Source: Streptomyces roseoverticillatus (GTDB lineage Bacteria; Actinomycetota; Actinomycetes; Streptomycetales; Streptomycetaceae). Taken from it: a stretch of DNA of 64,000 bases. The stretch spans positions 220,723 to 284,722 of the forward strand of contig NZ_JOFL01000019.1 in assembly GCF_000719265.1 (NCBI RefSeq). Direction: 5' to 3'. Under the pieces are notes generated by a model. The model was given only the letters and a program-made list of their open reading frames with translations. It was not told where the DNA came from and searched no databases. Made by a program: the position numbers and the translations under genes. Positions 10,914-20,811 of this stretch are shown here, piece after piece (position 1 is the stretch's first letter; each line of letters opens with the position of its first letter).

Positions 10914-11850
<937 letters not shown>

Positions 11851-16282: not shown

Positions 16283-16942
16283 TCACGCGCCCACGGGGGC
16301 CCAGCGCCGCCCGTGCGTCAGGTTCTCCAGCCCGGTCCACGCGAAGTTCATCAGCGTCGCCGCCGTCTCCCGCTCACAAGCGGCGGCGCCGTCGCGTTCG
16401 TTGGACCAGCCGGCGAGCGACTCGGCCGCGCCCACCAGGGCGTGGGCGAGGCCGGCGACCTCGGTCTCGGGCAGCGGCGCGGTGCAGCCGCTGTCCGCGG
16501 CCGTCTCGGTGATCAGCTGGGTGACCACGTCGACGAGCTGCTGCCGCAGGGCGGCCACTTCCAGGGCGAACGGTTCGCCGTGGGTGCGCGCCTGGCAGTG
16601 CAGGACGGCCCAGCCGTCGGGGTGCGCGGCCGTGTGGGCGAAGAACCCGCGCAGCCCGTTCCACAGCCGCCGGTCGGCGGGCGCCCCCGGGTCCACGGCG
16701 GCCCGCACGGCCGCGATGAGCGCCGCGGCCTCGCGCCGGATGCAGGCGCTGAAGAGGTCTTCCTTCGAGTTCAGGTAGAGATAGACCAAGGGCTTCGACG
16801 CCCCGGCGAGCTCGGCTATCTCGTCCATCGACGCGGCCCGGTACCCGCGCCGGGCGAAGACGGCCACGGCGGCGTCGAGCATCTGGCGCTCGCGCACCTC
16901 CCGCGGCATGCGCTTGGGCCTGGTCTGTGCAGCAGCAGTCAC
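16283..16942 (-). CDS. TetR family transcriptional regulator (fatty-acid type)
   Basis: A 219-residue TetR repressor. The N-terminal helix-turn-helix spans about residues 15-60 (AAVAVFARRGYRAASMDEIA, then LVYLYLNSKEDLF), followed by a ligand domain that contains C-terminal HALVGAAESLAGW. The reading frame has an ATG three codons earlier, but that ATG is fused to the GGAGGG ribosome binding site, so the GTG at 16940-16942 is chosen. A TTACC-GGCA-GGTAA palindrome lies about 30 bases upstream and the same core lies before the acyl-CoA ligase gene. It probably controls itself and the ligase in response to acyl-CoA. The ligand is inference. Confidence 0.88.
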   Translation of the reverse strand: MTAAAQTRPKRMPREVRERQMLDAAVAVFARRGYRAASMDEIAELAGASKPLVYLYLNSKEDLFSACIRREAAALIAAVRAAVDPGAPADRRLWNGLRGFFAHTAAHPDGWAVLHCQARTHGEPFALEVAALRQQLVDVVTQLITETAADSGCTAPLPETEVAGLAHALVGAAESLAGWSNERDGAAACERETAATLMNFAWTGLENLTHGRRWAPVGA

Positions 16943-16972
16943 GACAAACATCCCTCCGCCCCCGTCGTCACG

Positions 16973-16986: not shown

Positions 16987-17084
16987 TGTTACGGGGCGGA
17001 GGGATGCGGGGTAGGGCCGTTCGGGCCTTCCCTACGGACGGGTCAGTCAAGATCCCGTCAGCAGCGACCCTCGCACGCCGTCCG

Positions 17085-18413
17085 TCAGGCCGCCACGGGC
17101 TGCGGCGCGGCCTCCACGCGGGGCTCGTCCTCCAGGCGGGAGCCGTCGGCCGTCGCGTACGCCTCGCGGTCCAGGATCCCCTCGCGGGAGGCCACCAGGA
17201 TCGGGACGACCGACTGGCCGGCGACATTGGTCGCCGTACGCATCATGTCGACGATCGGGTCTATCGCCAGGAGCAGACCCACACCCGCCATCGGCAGGCC
17301 CAGCGTCGACAGCGTCAGGGTCAGCATCACCGTCGCGCCGGTCAGGCCGGCGGTCGCGGCCGAGCCGATCACCGAGACGAAGGCGATCAGGATGTAGTCC
17401 TTGACCTCCAGCGGCACGTCGAAGACCTGCGCGACGAAGATCGCGGCGATGGCCGGGTAGATCGAGGCGCAGCCGTCCATCTTGGTCGTCGAGCCGAACG
17501 GCACGGCGAAGGACGCGTACTCCCTGGGCACGCCCAGGCGCTCGGTGACCTTCTGCGTCAGCGGCATCGTGCCCACGGAGGAGCGGGAGACGAAGGCCAG
17601 CTGGATGGCGGGCCAGGCGCCCCGGAAGAACTGCAGCGGGTTGACCTTGCCGACGCCGGCCAGCAGCAGCGGGTAGACCACGAAGAGGACGAGGGCGCAG
17701 CCGACGTAGATGTCCGCGGTGAACGTCGCGTACTTGCTGAGCAGGTTCCAGCCGTACGTGGAGATGGCCGTGCCGACGAGGCCCAGCGTGCCCAGCGGGG
17801 CGAGCTTGATGACCCACCACAGGGCCTTCTGCAGCAGCTCCAGCACGGAGTGGCTGAGGGTGAGGACCGGCTTCGCCTTCTCGCCGGTCTTCAGGATCGC
17901 GATGCCCACGACCACGGCCATGAAGACGATCTGCAAGACCTTGAGCTGGGTGAAGGGCGTGACGATGTCGGTCGGGATGATGCCGGTGAGGAAGTCCAGC
18001 CAGGAGCCGTGCTTCTTGGGCTCGGCGCCGTCGGCGGCGGTCAGGCCGGTGCCCGCGCCCGGGTCGGTGAGCAGGCCGATGCCCAGGCCGATCACGACCG
18101 CGATCAGCGACGTGATCATGAACCACATCAGGGTGCGGGTGGCCAGCCGGGCGGCGTTGGAGACGTTCCGCAGATTGGTGATCGAGACGAGGATCGCGAA
18201 GAACACCAGCGGCGCGATGACCAGCATCAGCAGCTGGACGAAGAGGTCGCCGATCTTGCCCAGCGTGGTGGACAGCCAGGAGATGTCACCGCTCTTGGCG
18301 GCCCAGCCGAGCAGGGCGCCGACGACGAGACCGAGCAGGATCTGGGCCCAGAACGGGACCTTGGGTATGCGCCCGCGGATGGACGCCGTGGGGGACGGGG
18401 GTGTCGATGACAA
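17085..18413 (-). CDS. DAACS-family symporter, probable L-cystine transporter (TcyP-like)
   Basis: A 442-residue dicarboxylate/amino acid:cation symporter with eight membrane helices and two re-entrant loops. The serine loop is SRSSVGTMPL, the second loop segment is MDGCASIYPAIAAIF, and the ion and substrate helix is DMMRTATNVAG. The serine loop and the CASIYPA segment look closer to cystine carriers (B. subtilis TcyP has SRSSAGALPL and NGCAGIYPA, from memory) than to C4-dicarboxylate DctA. The start is TTG (18411-18413) with GGAG seven bases upstream. A cysteine-rich leader peptide is encoded 90 bases upstream on the same strand, which also points to a sulfur amino acid substrate. Common annotation would be DctA; I prefer cystine, with moderate confidence. 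Confidence 0.8.
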   Translation of the reverse strand: MSSTPPSPTASIRGRIPKVPFWAQILLGLVVGALLGWAAKSGDISWLSTTLGKIGDLFVQLLMLVIAPLVFFAILVSITNLRNVSNAARLATRTLMWFMITSLIAVVIGLGIGLLTDPGAGTGLTAADGAEPKKHGSWLDFLTGIIPTDIVTPFTQLKVLQIVFMAVVVGIAILKTGEKAKPVLTLSHSVLELLQKALWWVIKLAPLGTLGLVGTAISTYGWNLLSKYATFTADIYVGCALVLFVVYPLLLAGVGKVNPLQFFRGAWPAIQLAFVSRSSVGTMPLTQKVTERLGVPREYASFAVPFGSTTKMDGCASIYPAIAAIFVAQVFDVPLEVKDYILIAFVSVIGSAATAGLTGATVMLTLTLSTLGLPMAGVGLLLAIDPIVDMMRTATNVAGQSVVPILVASREGILDREAYATADGSRLEDEPRVEAAPQPVAA

Positions 18414-18502
18414 CGGAAACTCCGGTTACAGACGGAAGAAAAAGGGCGTGAGGCGCCGGGGAAATCCGTTTGCGCAGGATCTCCGGCCGCGGTGGACATG
18501 CG

Positions 18503-18607
18503 TCAGCGGCGACAACAGGCCGCGGAGACACAGCGGCAAAGATCGACGTGCAGGCGCGCCACGAGCGCGGGGCCCGTGGGGAACTGGTGCGCTGCTGCTG
18601 TCTTCAT
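18503..18607 (-). CDS. Cysteine-rich putative leader peptide upstream of the symporter
   Basis: A 34-residue ORF, MKTAAAHQ...LVARLHVDLCRC...AACCRR. Its second half has four Cys, with two Cys codons adjacent. The LHVDLCR core recalls the putative sulfur-responsive leader peptides annotated ahead of cysteine-related genes in Streptomyces (from memory). A promoter-like pair places transcription start at or next to the ATG, so it would be leaderless. The stop is 90 bases before the symporter TTG. In between, a short GGCG-CGCC hairpin precedes a U/C-rich stretch (minus strand of 18436-18457), a weak attenuator candidate. The model is ribosome stalling at Cys codons when Cys-tRNA is scarce. This is inference. 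Confidence 0.6.
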   Translation of the reverse strand: MKTAAAHQFPTGPALVARLHVDLCRCVSAACCRR

Positions 18608-18614
18608 GTCCAAT

Positions 18615-18644
18615 ACGTTAACACTCGGACTTTGAGGAGCCCAA
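18615..18644 (-). promoter_or_regulatory. Putative promoter of the leader peptide and symporter
   Basis: On the minus strand, TTGGGC (639-644) and TAACGT (615-620) are separated by 18 bases. The -10 ends seven bases before the leader ATG, which fits a leaderless transcript. Confidence 0.5.
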
Positions 18645-18698
18645 AGGTCTGCTTTGGGTTCGCCGGACGCCGCGACCTCGCCGGAACCCCGCCGAAAA

Positions 18699-18747
18699 CG
18701 CCGGTGCCCCGGCGTGGAGCGGGTGGCTCCACGCCGGGGCACCGGCG
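18699..18747 (-). terminator. Perfect 22-bp hairpin terminator
   Basis: Arms 18699-18720 and 18726-18747 are exact complements with a GGGTG loop. On the minus strand the stem is followed by TTTTCGG, so it terminates the DUF4229 gene 25 bases after its stop. It also separates that gene from the symporter promoter. Confidence 0.9.
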
Positions 18748-18772
18748 AAAAATCGGGCAAACGTGACGAGGC

Positions 18773-19060
18773 TTACACCCCGTCCTCCTGACCGGCGTTG
18801 GCGTTGATCGCCGCCTTGGCCCGGTCCACGCGCTCCACGATCTGCACGGACATCGCGTCGCGCGACTTGCGCAGCAGCACCCAGCTCAGCGGCGCGGACA
18901 GGACGAGCGAGAGCAGCACCATCCACATGAGGTTCGAGCTGCCCACGCCCAGCGGGATGACGTGCGCGTAAGCGAGCACGTAGACGACGGCGAAGCAGCC
19001 GATGAGCAGGCCGAATCGCAGGGCGGTGTAGCGGAGCGACGCGTACTTCTGGCTACTCAC
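18773..19060 (-). CDS. DUF4229 small membrane protein
   Basis: A 95-residue protein with two membrane helices (about residues 12-35 and 41-62 in this reading) and a charged C-terminal tail. KYASLRYTALRFG at the start and LLRKSRDAM after the second helix match the DUF4229 family, of unknown function. The GTG at 19058-19060 is chosen because the family begins with SxKYASLRY. An upstream in-frame GTG at 19097-19099 would add 13 residues and has a weak ribosome binding site. It lies 80 bases downstream of mqnE and is probably cotranscribed with it. Confidence 0.78.
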   Translation of the reverse strand: MSSQKYASLRYTALRFGLLIGCFAVVYVLAYAHVIPLGVGSSNLMWMVLLSLVLSAPLSWVLLRKSRDAMSVQIVERVDRAKAAINANAGQEDGV

Positions 19061-19140
19061 GGACGGGACCTTCTTCTCGACGACGACCGAAAGGGGCACG
19101 TTCTTCAGTCAAACCAGTACAGCACGGCCCGAAGTGGATC

Positions 19141-20304
19141 TCAGAGGCGCATCGCCTGCGGCGACTCGCGCAGCGCGGCGTCCGGACCCGGGTACTCGCG
19201 GATGACCTCGTAGCGGGTGTTGCGCTCGACCGGGCGGAAGCCGGCCTCGCGGATCAGCTCCAGCAGGTCGTCACGGGTGAGCTTGTTCGGCGTGCCGTAG
19301 TTGTCCGCGTCGTGCGTGATCTTGTACTCGACGACCGAGCCGTCCATGTCGTCCGCGCCGTGCTGCAGCGCGAGCTGCGCGGTCTGCACGCCGTGCATCA
19401 CCCAGAACACCTTGACGTGCGGGACGTTGTCGAACAGCAGCCGCGAGACCGCGAAGGTCTTCAGCGCCTCGGCGCCCGACGCCATCGTCGTCCGCGCCTG
19501 GAGGCGGTTGCGGATCTTGCCGTCCTTCATGTCCACGAAGTCGTGCTGGTAGCGCAGCGGGATGAAGACGTGGAAGCCGCCGGTCTCGTCCTGCAGCTCG
19601 CGCAGCCGCAGGACGTGGTCGACGCGGTGGCGCGGCTCCTCGATGTGGCCGTAGAGCATCGTCGCCGGGCCCTTGAGGCCCTTGGAGTGCGCCAGGCGGT
19701 GGATGCGCGACCAGTCCTCCCAGTGGGTGTCGTGGTCGACGATGTGCTGGCGGACCTCCCAGTCGAAGATCTCCGCGCCGCCGCCGGTCAGCGACTCCAG
19801 GCCGGCGTCGATCAGCTCGTCGAGGATCTCGTCGGCCGGCAGGCCGGAGATCTTCTCGAAGTGCTGGATCTCGGTGGCGGTGAAGGCCTTCAGCGAGACG
19901 TTCGGCAGCGCCTCCTTGAGGGCCTTCAGCGAGCGCGGGTAGTAGCGCCAGGGCAGCGTCGGGTGGAGGCCGTTGACGATGTGCAGCTCGGTGAGCTTGT
20001 CGCTCTCCATCGCCTTGGCGAGGCGGACGGCCTCCTCGATGCGCATCGTGTACGCGTCCTTCTCGCCCGGCTTGCGCTGGAACGAGCAGTACGCGCACGA
20101 CGCCGTGCACACGTTCGTCATGTTCAGGTGACGGTTGACGTTGAAGTGGACGACGTCGCCGTTCTTCTGCGTACGCACGTGGTGGGCGAGCCCGCCCAGC
20201 CAGGCCAGGTCGTCGGACTCGTAGAGGGCGATGCCGTCCTCACGGGTCAGCCGCTCCCCGGCGAGGACCTTCTCCTCCAGCTCGCGCTTGAGCCCCGCGT
20301 CCAT
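19141..20304 (-). CDS. mqnE: Aminodeoxyfutalosine synthase (radical SAM)
   Basis: MqnE, 387 residues, joins 3-enolpyruvylbenzoate (the MqnA product) with SAM to form aminodeoxyfutalosine. The cluster motif CTASCAYC has C66, C70 and C73 (CX3CX2C). HIVNGLHP and the conserved GGAEIFDWEVR and FVFIPLRYQH-like segments follow. It is a paralogue of MqnC (6584-7795). The ATG at 20302-20304 gives the family N-terminus. An AsnC-type regulator gene follows upstream on the same strand, 52 bases away. Confidence 0.94.
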   Translation of the reverse strand: MDAGLKRELEEKVLAGERLTREDGIALYESDDLAWLGGLAHHVRTQKNGDVVHFNVNRHLNMTNVCTASCAYCSFQRKPGEKDAYTMRIEEAVRLAKAMESDKLTELHIVNGLHPTLPWRYYPRSLKALKEALPNVSLKAFTATEIQHFEKISGLPADEILDELIDAGLESLTGGGAEIFDWEVRQHIVDHDTHWEDWSRIHRLAHSKGLKGPATMLYGHIEEPRHRVDHVLRLRELQDETGGFHVFIPLRYQHDFVDMKDGKIRNRLQARTTMASGAEALKTFAVSRLLFDNVPHVKVFWVMHGVQTAQLALQHGADDMDGSVVEYKITHDADNYGTPNKLTRDDLLELIREAGFRPVERNTRYEVIREYPGPDAALRESPQAMRL

Positions 20305-20355
20305 GACGTCCGCCTCTCCGATACTTCCGCTTTACGAACCCTCCCGAGCGTATCC

Positions 20356-20811
20356 CTACGCCTCGTCGGGCAGTTCGCCGACCCGGTTCTCCCACTTCGT
20401 GGACAGCACGATCGTGGTACGGGTGCGGGCCACGCCCTTGGTGCCGGAGAGCCGGCGGATGGTGCGCTCCAGGCCGTCCACGTCGCCGACGCGGACCTTG
20501 AGCATGTACGAGTCGTCGCCGGCGATGAACCAGCAGTCCTCGATCTCCTCCAGGTCGCGCAGCCGGCGGGCGACGTCCTCGTGGTCGGCGGAGTCCGAGA
20601 GCTGAAGGCCGATCAGGGCGGTGACGCCCAGCCCGAGCGACGCGGCGTTCACGGTCGCGCGGTAGCCCGTGATGACGCCGGCCGCCTCCAGGCGGTTGAT
20701 CCGGTCGGTGACGCTCGGCCCGGAGAGGCCGACCAGCCGGCCCAGCTCCGCGTACGAGGCCCGGCCGTTCTCCCGGAGGGCCTGGATGAGCTGCCTGTCC
20801 ACCGCGTCCAT
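20356..20811 (-). CDS. Lrp/AsnC family regulator
   Basis: A 151-residue regulator. The N-terminal winged helix-turn-helix (DRQLIQALRENGRASYAELGRLVGLSG..., residues 5-50) is followed by an AsnC ligand-binding domain with the typical GDDSYMLKVRV strand. The ATG has GAAAGG and AGGT upstream. Members sense amino acids and form octamers. The gene lies directly upstream of mqnE in the same direction and diverges from a small basic ORF. A perfect palindrome at 20833-20846 lies in the shared upstream region and may be its operator. The effector is unknown. Confidence 0.9.
   Translation of the reverse strand: MDAVDRQLIQALRENGRASYAELGRLVGLSGPSVTDRINRLEAAGVITGYRATVNAASLGLGVTALIGLQLSDSADHEDVARRLRDLEEIEDCWFIAGDDSYMLKVRVGDVDGLERTIRRLSGTKGVARTRTTIVLSTKWENRVGELPDEA

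Follow-up and report, generated by a model that had tools for sequence, protein, structure and literature searches.

Among the closest described systems are the leaders of the Ms5788A type, which reportedly respond to cysteine, a finding ascribed to Canestrari et al. 2020. Leaders of this type are described or cited as cysteine-responsive in the accessible parts of two other articles (PMC13236596; PMC9094748), and the accessible text of two more records poly-Cys leaders in mycobacteria (PMC1262725; PMC4633059). For the mycobacterial Cys leaders, an involvement of Rho was proposed in what the accessible part of the article itself terms a weak prediction (Seliverstov et al., 2005; PMC1262725). 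Here, a related element was analysed in DNA from Streptomyces roseoverticillatus (assembly GCF_000719265.1, contig NZ_JOFL01000019.1, positions 220,723-284,722, forward strand). This whole stretch of 64,000 nucleotides (nt) is called the window. The element is a short open reading frame (ORF) located upstream of a gene that encodes a transporter of the SDF/DAACS family. It is interpreted as a cysteine-responsive leader in which ribosomes would pause at a single UGU codon, an RNA helix (A:B) would carry the output, the transporter would take up sulfur amino acids and a separate operator would control transcription, a combined reading to which a probability of about 0.53 is given. The identity of the element as a cysteine leader is, by indirect evidence, well supported.

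Orthologues of the transporter were found in 83 of 121 Streptomyces genomes (E <= 1e-60) and the upstream DNA was examined for 82 of them. Genome G120, where the match starts 117 bases from the contig end, was excluded, as were second, partial transporter places in G085 and G041. A second sample comprised 46 transporter loci from other families plus one rhizobial record (Ensifer, L133), all within that total; locus L274 consists of only 305 bases. The related species in all the counts given here are not independent of each other, and Fisher values for such counts are descriptive only. The initial annotation had claimed a 34-residue, Cys-ended ORF some 90 bases ahead of a DAACS transporter and had proposed comparing it in other Streptomyces. 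The ORF exists on the minus strand (18503-18607), its stop codon is separated from the TTG start codon of the transporter (18413) by 89 nt, and the comparison upheld its conservation: the leader is present at 79 of the 82 Streptomyces loci (78 without L019, whose degenerate motif was added to the search pattern post hoc) and at 35 of the 46 loci outside the genus. By these counts, conservation of the leader is far beyond chance. An Rfam scan of positions 17000-20600 produced three matches with E between 0.052 and 0.35, all below their gathering scores.

What stays constant in the leader is L-x-x-R-x-x-[VI]-D-L-x-R-x5-C, rather than a poly-Cys run. A Cys located nine residues after the Asp (D+9) is found in all 113 transporter leaders that have this Asp (78/78 in Streptomyces and 35/35 elsewhere), and the search patterns for transporter leaders made no demand for it. 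UGU encodes the D+9 residue in 174 of the 177 distinct leaders, a total that counts once the locus common to the other-gene and dioxygenase sets. By set, UGU occupies the position in 75 of 78 Streptomyces transporter leaders (the exceptions are L032, L037 and L084), in 35/35 transporter leaders from outside the genus, in 35/35 leaders of other genes and in 30/30 leaders of cysteine dioxygenase. The search pattern for other genes required the D+9 Cys, and that for the dioxygenase, which must permit Met before Asp, demanded it in part; the residue is therefore conditioned, or partly conditioned, in these two sets and the codon is free. The other-gene count covers 35 of 38 loci, the pattern having missed L178, L179 and the dioxygenase leader L153. 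In the transporter genes themselves, UGC and UGU occur in a ratio of 112:2 (58 Streptomyces loci) and 32:0 (23 others), so that UGU accounts for 2 of 146 Cys codons, and seven genes of the window gave 19:1. The initial view of Cys codons as the signature of the leader thus holds in part: a Cys leader is conserved, but the number of Cys varies and the constant elements are the motif and one Cys codon, nearly always UGU.

These codon data bear on classical codon counting, according to which any run of Cys codons would stall the ribosome and the peptide sequence would be irrelevant and conserved by descent. This explanation is unlikely, although it is the most probable of the rival explanations. 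Streptomyces transporter leaders do contain 2 to 8 Cys after the Asp, several encoded by UGU, and mycobacteria have poly-Cys leaders according to the accessible text of PMC1262725 and PMC4633059. However, D+9 is the sole Cys after the Asp in 16 of the 35 transporter leaders outside Streptomyces. In the other-gene and dioxygenase leaders, moreover, the neighbouring Cys are mostly encoded by UGC (UGC 52 and UGU 13 in the former; 55:2 in the latter, made up of 29:1 at +7 and 26:1 at +13), whereas D+9 is always UGU. Codon counting is further opposed by the persistence of the motif through codon changes. In 32 distinct leaders from outside Streptomyces, the third codon positions of six residues treated as invariant are 57% identical, compared with 96% for first and second positions. 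Because Arg, Asp, Leu and Arg survive synonymous codon change, the peptide, and not the RNA alone, seems to be under selection. The Ser at +6 is encoded by AGC/AGT in 26/26 leaders outside Streptomyces and by TCC/TCG in 72/73 leaders inside the genus. A single cysteinyl-tRNA with anticodon GCA would decode UGU by wobble. The shared fixed motif together with the rare UGU codon suggests that the ribosome itself gauges cysteine at the leader. The part of the literature covered contained no description of a Cys at D+9, of UGU as its codon, of the CTCAAAG operator or of the leader of the SDF transporter.

Leaders of the same type are not restricted to the transporter. The genome of S. roseoverticillatus contains four more leaders that score above the cut-off of the NCBIfam model NF042934 ("putative leader peptide"), located before genes for sulfite reductase, cysteine dioxygenase, a 2-oxoglutarate-Fe(II) oxygenase and a rhodanese-type sulfurtransferase. 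The link to leaders of sulfur genes, which had been proposed from the window alone, is borne out by the sulfite reductase and rhodanese genes. The NF042934 motif extends to leaders of the Ms5788A type as well. The model matched at E <= 1e-4 in 79 of 118 genomes of the class, and six ORFs found within 450 nt downstream were identified with Pfam as a pyridoxal phosphate enzyme resembling cysteine synthase, a DUF4395 protein, two substrate-binding proteins, CbiX and a luciferase-like monooxygenase. In the profile alignment, residues 14-31 of the window leader correspond to profile positions 2-19 and the match ends at the D+9 Cys. Among orthologous leaders, one from another Streptomyces fails the model (24.4 bits) and two from outside the genus pass (30.9 and 28.2). 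The Ms5788A model did not report the window leader at E up to 1 (cut-off 45) and the Ms4527A model gave it 13.1 bits (cut-off 45). Because L151, a mycobacterial-looking leader with a poly-Cys tail, passes both Ms5788A (47.3, cut-off 45) and NF042934, the motif is tied to the experimentally studied mycobacterial leaders. Of 41 genomes searched, 37 gave a match to cysteine dioxygenase; at all 30 Streptomyces loci whose DNA was retrieved (L277-L306; in the own genome, G000:C21, L002), the gene carries the same type of leader, LWRRVHMDLVRYAGCVCRPSC.

A ligand-sensing arrest peptide, in which the nascent chain would bind cysteine or a sulfur metabolite and arrest translation at or just after D+9, and for which the signal may be high cysteine or redox, would agree with the fixed spacing between motif and Cys and with the sharing of one leader type by uptake, assimilation and degradation genes. 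It is nonetheless a rather improbable explanation: the UGU bias is easier to explain by decoding speed, and Ms5788A-type leaders are said, in the accessible parts of PMC13236596 and PMC9094748, to respond to cysteine limitation. As a separate observation, NF042934 leaders were also seen before DUF4395-like membrane proteins (L162-L164 and L170-L173; by Pfam for the L162 protein and by inspection of the sequence for the others). The position of such leaders before DUF4395-like genes suggests that DUF4395 takes part in the metabolism of sulfur or cysteine.

The protein encoded downstream matches PF00375 with 344.9 bits (gathering score 27.9). Its identity is 29% to TcyP of E. coli, 27% to DctA, 26% to GltP and 37% to a solved aspartate transporter. 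That it carries dicarboxylates or glutamate/aspartate, as annotated, and that its link with a cysteine leader is a coincidence, is about as improbable as the arrest peptide. Apart from the PF00375 match, this would be in line with the nearest solved structures by sequence, which are aspartate/glutamate transporters, and with the Arg of the RT motif, which is retained. Against this, the NCBIfam DctA models gave scores far below their cut-offs (216.6 versus 513 and 188.9 versus 570), as did the GltP model (157.9 versus 638). In an alignment of 30 SDF proteins, one extra residue in transmembrane segment 7 (TM7), within the motif GCAxx(Y/F)PA, is present in 10/10 rows of the clade of the window protein and 6/6 rows of the TcyP clade (four of these six are annotated as cystine transporters and two are not), and in none of the 14 other proteins. 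The TcyP-like motif claimed for the transporter on first inspection is supported, in the form of the TM7 insertion shared with the TcyP clade. In the tree, the transporter lies outside the TcyP clade, and each of the two clades is supported at 100/100. When the motif columns and SstT were removed, both clades grouped together against the rest at 75/87, which is not conclusive. At the position that we take to be the sodium-binding Asp of GltPh, the transporter has Gln and the TcyP clade Ser or Ala. The other SDF gene of the same genome groups with DctA, and the leader stays linked to the transporter in other bacterial families, both of which speak against a dicarboxylate or glutamate carrier. 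On these data, the transporter most likely imports cystine or a related sulfur amino acid, which is a best guess at its substrate, and cystine itself is plausible.

The promoter was assigned by conservation. Because the probable -10 element TAACGT precedes the leader ATG by only 7 nt, a leaderless transcript is plausible. A plain sigma-70 scan detected no promoter. The tetranucleotide GTTA is found within 30 nt downstream of the operator in 80 of 82 Streptomyces loci, and 76 of the 79 leader-bearing loci have 21 or 22 nt between operator and ATG. The promoter elements first claimed at the transcript start are thus probably those of a leaderless-type promoter. The span initially given to the whole element (18413..18650) misses the first eight bases of the operator (18630-18658), a feature absent from the initial annotation. 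With up to 3 mismatches, the operator is present at 80/82 Streptomyces transporter loci. A control search at 3 mismatches in 30 long loci gave 56 places on both strands, a figure that includes, unseparated, true sites and their opposite-strand overlaps. In the genome of S. roseoverticillatus, the sole other match at 3 mismatches overlaps the same site on the opposite strand. A slightly looser pattern applied at one mismatch to the 121 Streptomyces genomes identified 73 genomes with exactly one operator each, 72 of these operators falling no more than 600 nt from the transporter; as a control, the reversed pattern yielded 2 matches altogether. At one mismatch, the operator is missing from 11 of the 83 genomes with a transporter, and in the DNA examined from the 35 leader loci outside Streptomyces it is absent at up to 3 mismatches, the best site having 6. 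The finding of the operator almost only at the transporter gene suggests that control is exerted at a second level. That the operator and its regulator do all the regulating, with the leader merely loading ribosomes or stabilising the mRNA, is very improbable, since the presence of the operator at the transporter in 72/83 genomes, its retention where the leader is lost and the lack of a consensus sigma-70 promoter are set against its absence from all 35 non-Streptomyces leader loci and the fact that ribosome loading needs neither a fixed motif nor a fixed codon.

The neighbouring TetR gene (16283-16951) was considered as the source of the regulator and is left as an unproved candidate. Its orthologues occur in 98 of 121 Streptomyces genomes, more than carry the operator, and upstream regions from 20 of the 38 transporter-less genomes contained an operator site in G030 only. 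In the one-mismatch search, this is the lone operator-like site away from a transporter (L239; G030:C18, 64676-64704); G030 has no transporter match, and the site precedes its orthologue of the TetR gene.

Comparison of loci shows that ORF, motif, D+9 Cys, UGU codon, arm A complementarity and operator are conserved. A sequence of events can be proposed in which pausing, direction of the response, termination, substrate and regulator binding are the inferred parts. Translation of the transporter mRNA would begin, at its 5′ end, with the leader ORF. With the nascent L-x-x-R-x-x-[VI]-D-L-x-R in the exit tunnel, a shortage of cysteinyl-tRNA would make the ribosome pause at the rare D+9 UGU codon. 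Paused on the Cys codons, the ribosome would, in Streptomyces, cover arm A and block the formation of the A:B helix across the stop codon. Loss of A:B would change what becomes of the transcript; Rho-dependent termination in the C-rich spacer is the most likely route and masking of the ribosome-binding site a less likely one, and expression of the transporter would rise at low cysteine. Independently of this, a transcription factor bound at the CTCAAAG operator would set the activity of the promoter.

The helix is suggested by an excess of complementarity. In 78 Streptomyces loci, arm A is complementary to the region past the stop codon with a median z of -2.64, compared with -1.70 for the next overlapping window and -0.06 to -0.96 for the nine remaining windows. 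The z is negative in 65/78 loci and below -1.5 in 47/78, and in Streptomyces a median of about 8 nt separates the leader stop from the beginning of the partner stretch. The duplex of the window itself is predicted at -21.4 kcal/mol (z -3.5). A test of ungapped stems found an intrinsic terminator in 0 of 79 spacers between leader and transporter, and the terminator scan of the window gave one weak match that overlaps the Shine-Dalgarno sequence, where 0.5 would be expected. The spacers consist of 45% C and 26% G. Because they are C-rich and have no terminator, Rho-dependent termination is the preferred, though unproved, output.

Several observations weigh against this proposal. The leader was not found at 11 of the 46 loci outside Streptomyces (L132, L133, L134, L218, L219, L268, L270, L271, L272, L274 and L275). 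Three of the 82 Streptomyces loci (L015, L016 and L046) and a closer relative (L103) have kept the operator and lost the leader; in L015 and L103, a start codon of the transporter occupies the place of the leader ATG, so that the promoter seems to lead directly into the transporter ORF. The window leader scores 23.7 bits against NF042934, below the cut-off of 27. Contrary to a strict one-codon rule, Streptomyces transporter leaders also use UGU at +4 (39/62), +11 (9/10) and +12 (6/7), though they favour UGC at +2 (71/76) and +10 (34/38), and in L151, L157 and L159 further codons of the poly-Cys run are UGU besides +9. The A:B z is not negative in 13 of 78 Streptomyces loci and no A:B signal was detected in the 35 leaders from outside the genus. 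Consequently, the helix cannot be the general mechanism, and as a general feature of the leader type it is ruled out by those 35 leaders. An alternative B:C hairpin was no better than shuffled sequences (mean z -0.63; 6/78 loci under -1.5). Folding of the 78 loci with the footprint of a stalled ribosome blocked changed the mean exposure of the Shine-Dalgarno sequence by +0.016 (first Cys) and +0.027 (last Cys). Exposure rose by more than 0.1 in 13 and 16 loci, respectively, and fell in 8 and 4. For the window itself, the value dropped from 0.47 to 0.23 when Cys24 occupied the A site and was unchanged at 0.47 with the last Cys. Unmasking of the Shine-Dalgarno sequence by a stalled ribosome thus receives no support from the modelled folding, and because the exposure barely shifts and drops in the window, the mycobacterial type of output is unsupported here. 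Finally, cysteine dioxygenase, which consumes cysteine, bears this leader, a misfit with simple induction at low cysteine. Because the dioxygenase has the same leader type, the direction of the response cannot be read from the Cys codons; at that gene, either the downstream RNA would invert the sign or the signal would be other than simply low cysteine.

Table 1. Location of the leader, its RNA and promoter elements and the transporter gene in the window
Feature	Coordinates	Strand	Basis
SDF/DAACS-family transporter, 442 amino acids, TTG start, TM7 motif KMDGCASIYPA	17085..18413	-	PF00375, motif, tree
Shine-Dalgarno GGAG of transporter, 6 nt from TTG	18420..18423	-	sequence
Possible RNA arm C, could pair with B instead of A	18452..18468	-	weak
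RNA arm B, CCACCGCGGCCGGAGATCC, 7 nt beyond leader stop	18477..18495	-	duplex with arm A
Leader ORF, 34 codons, MKTAAAHQFPTGPALVARLHVDLCRCVSAACCRR	18503..18607	-	ATG at 18607, stop ending at 18503; conservation
Codon 31, TGT, Cys nine residues after Asp22	18515..18517	-	D+9 conservation and UGU bias
RNA arm A, codons D-L-C-R-C-V	18527..18544	-	excess complementarity to region past stop
Probable -10 element TAACGT, 7 nt 5′ of leader ATG	18615..18620	-	conserved position
Operator CCCAAAG-N5-CTTTGGG-N3-CTCAAAG, three half-sites over -35 region	18630..18658	-	conserved

Further upstream, inspection of the minus strand shows a long hairpin with TTTT after it (18699-18747). It probably terminates transcription of the DUF4229 gene located upstream (18773-19099), and it was not listed by the terminator scan. 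Other genes of the neighbourhood encode a VitK2_biosynth protein (10939-11841), a radical S-adenosylmethionine protein with a CofH/MqnC C-terminal region (19141-20304) and an Lrp/AsnC regulator (20356-20811); the VitK2_biosynth and CofH/MqnC genes resemble those of menaquinone synthesis by the futalosine route.

The new elements are the motif-and-codon signature, its occurrence before the genes of a transporter and of cysteine dioxygenase, and an operator almost confined to the transporter gene. Cysteine leaders are thereby extended from assimilation enzymes to transport and degradation, and the SDF transporter gains a probable role in sulfur amino-acid uptake that was masked by its dicarboxylate annotation. 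If the rule of UGU plus motif is functional, decoding speed at one peptide-primed codon could serve as the gauge of cysteine. If true, this principle differs from the counting of codon runs and makes single-cysteine leaders recognisable. More tentatively, the leaders could form one Actinomycetes-wide family of cysteine-gauging arrest peptides, in which the motif chain would sensitise the ribosome to a single slow UGU at D+9. Such a device would be wired to uptake, assimilation and breakdown, the downstream RNA would set the sign of the response and poly-Cys leaders would be elaborations of it.

Several described systems can be compared with the window leader and its transporter. The leader uORFC-8-2 of cysS in Rhodobacterales shares Cys codons in a leader ORF and differs, in the accessible description, by tandem Cys, dominance of UGC and an intrinsic terminator (PMC8632094). 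The S. lividans TK24 leaders are leaderless ORFs before amino-acid genes, several without a terminator, like the window leader; the eight listed in the accessible part of the article are for Leu, Trp, Ala, Ile, Met and Thr and none for cysteine (PMC8079986). The candidates of Seliverstov et al. (2005; PMC1262725) are also actinobacterial Cys leaders without a terminator, in which runs of Cys codons precede cys operons (Mycobacterium, P. acnes) and cbs (B. longum), and no transporter and no Streptomyces cysteine leader is among those named in the accessible text. On the side of the protein, TcyP (YdjN), the cystine/sulfocysteine symporter of E. coli, has the SDF fold and the GCAxxYPA insertion in common with the window transporter, at 29% identity and in a separate clade. 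The closest relatives of the leader remain those recognised by Ms5788A, Ms4527A and NF042934, including the mycobacterial poly-Cys ORFs. In contrast to these, the window leader is located before a transporter, is not poly-Cys and scores below the cut-offs, and unmasking of a binding site is unsupported by folding. They are likewise short, probably leaderless and placed before sulfur genes, and the NF042934-type leaders have the same 19-position motif as the window leader, ending in the D+9 Cys.

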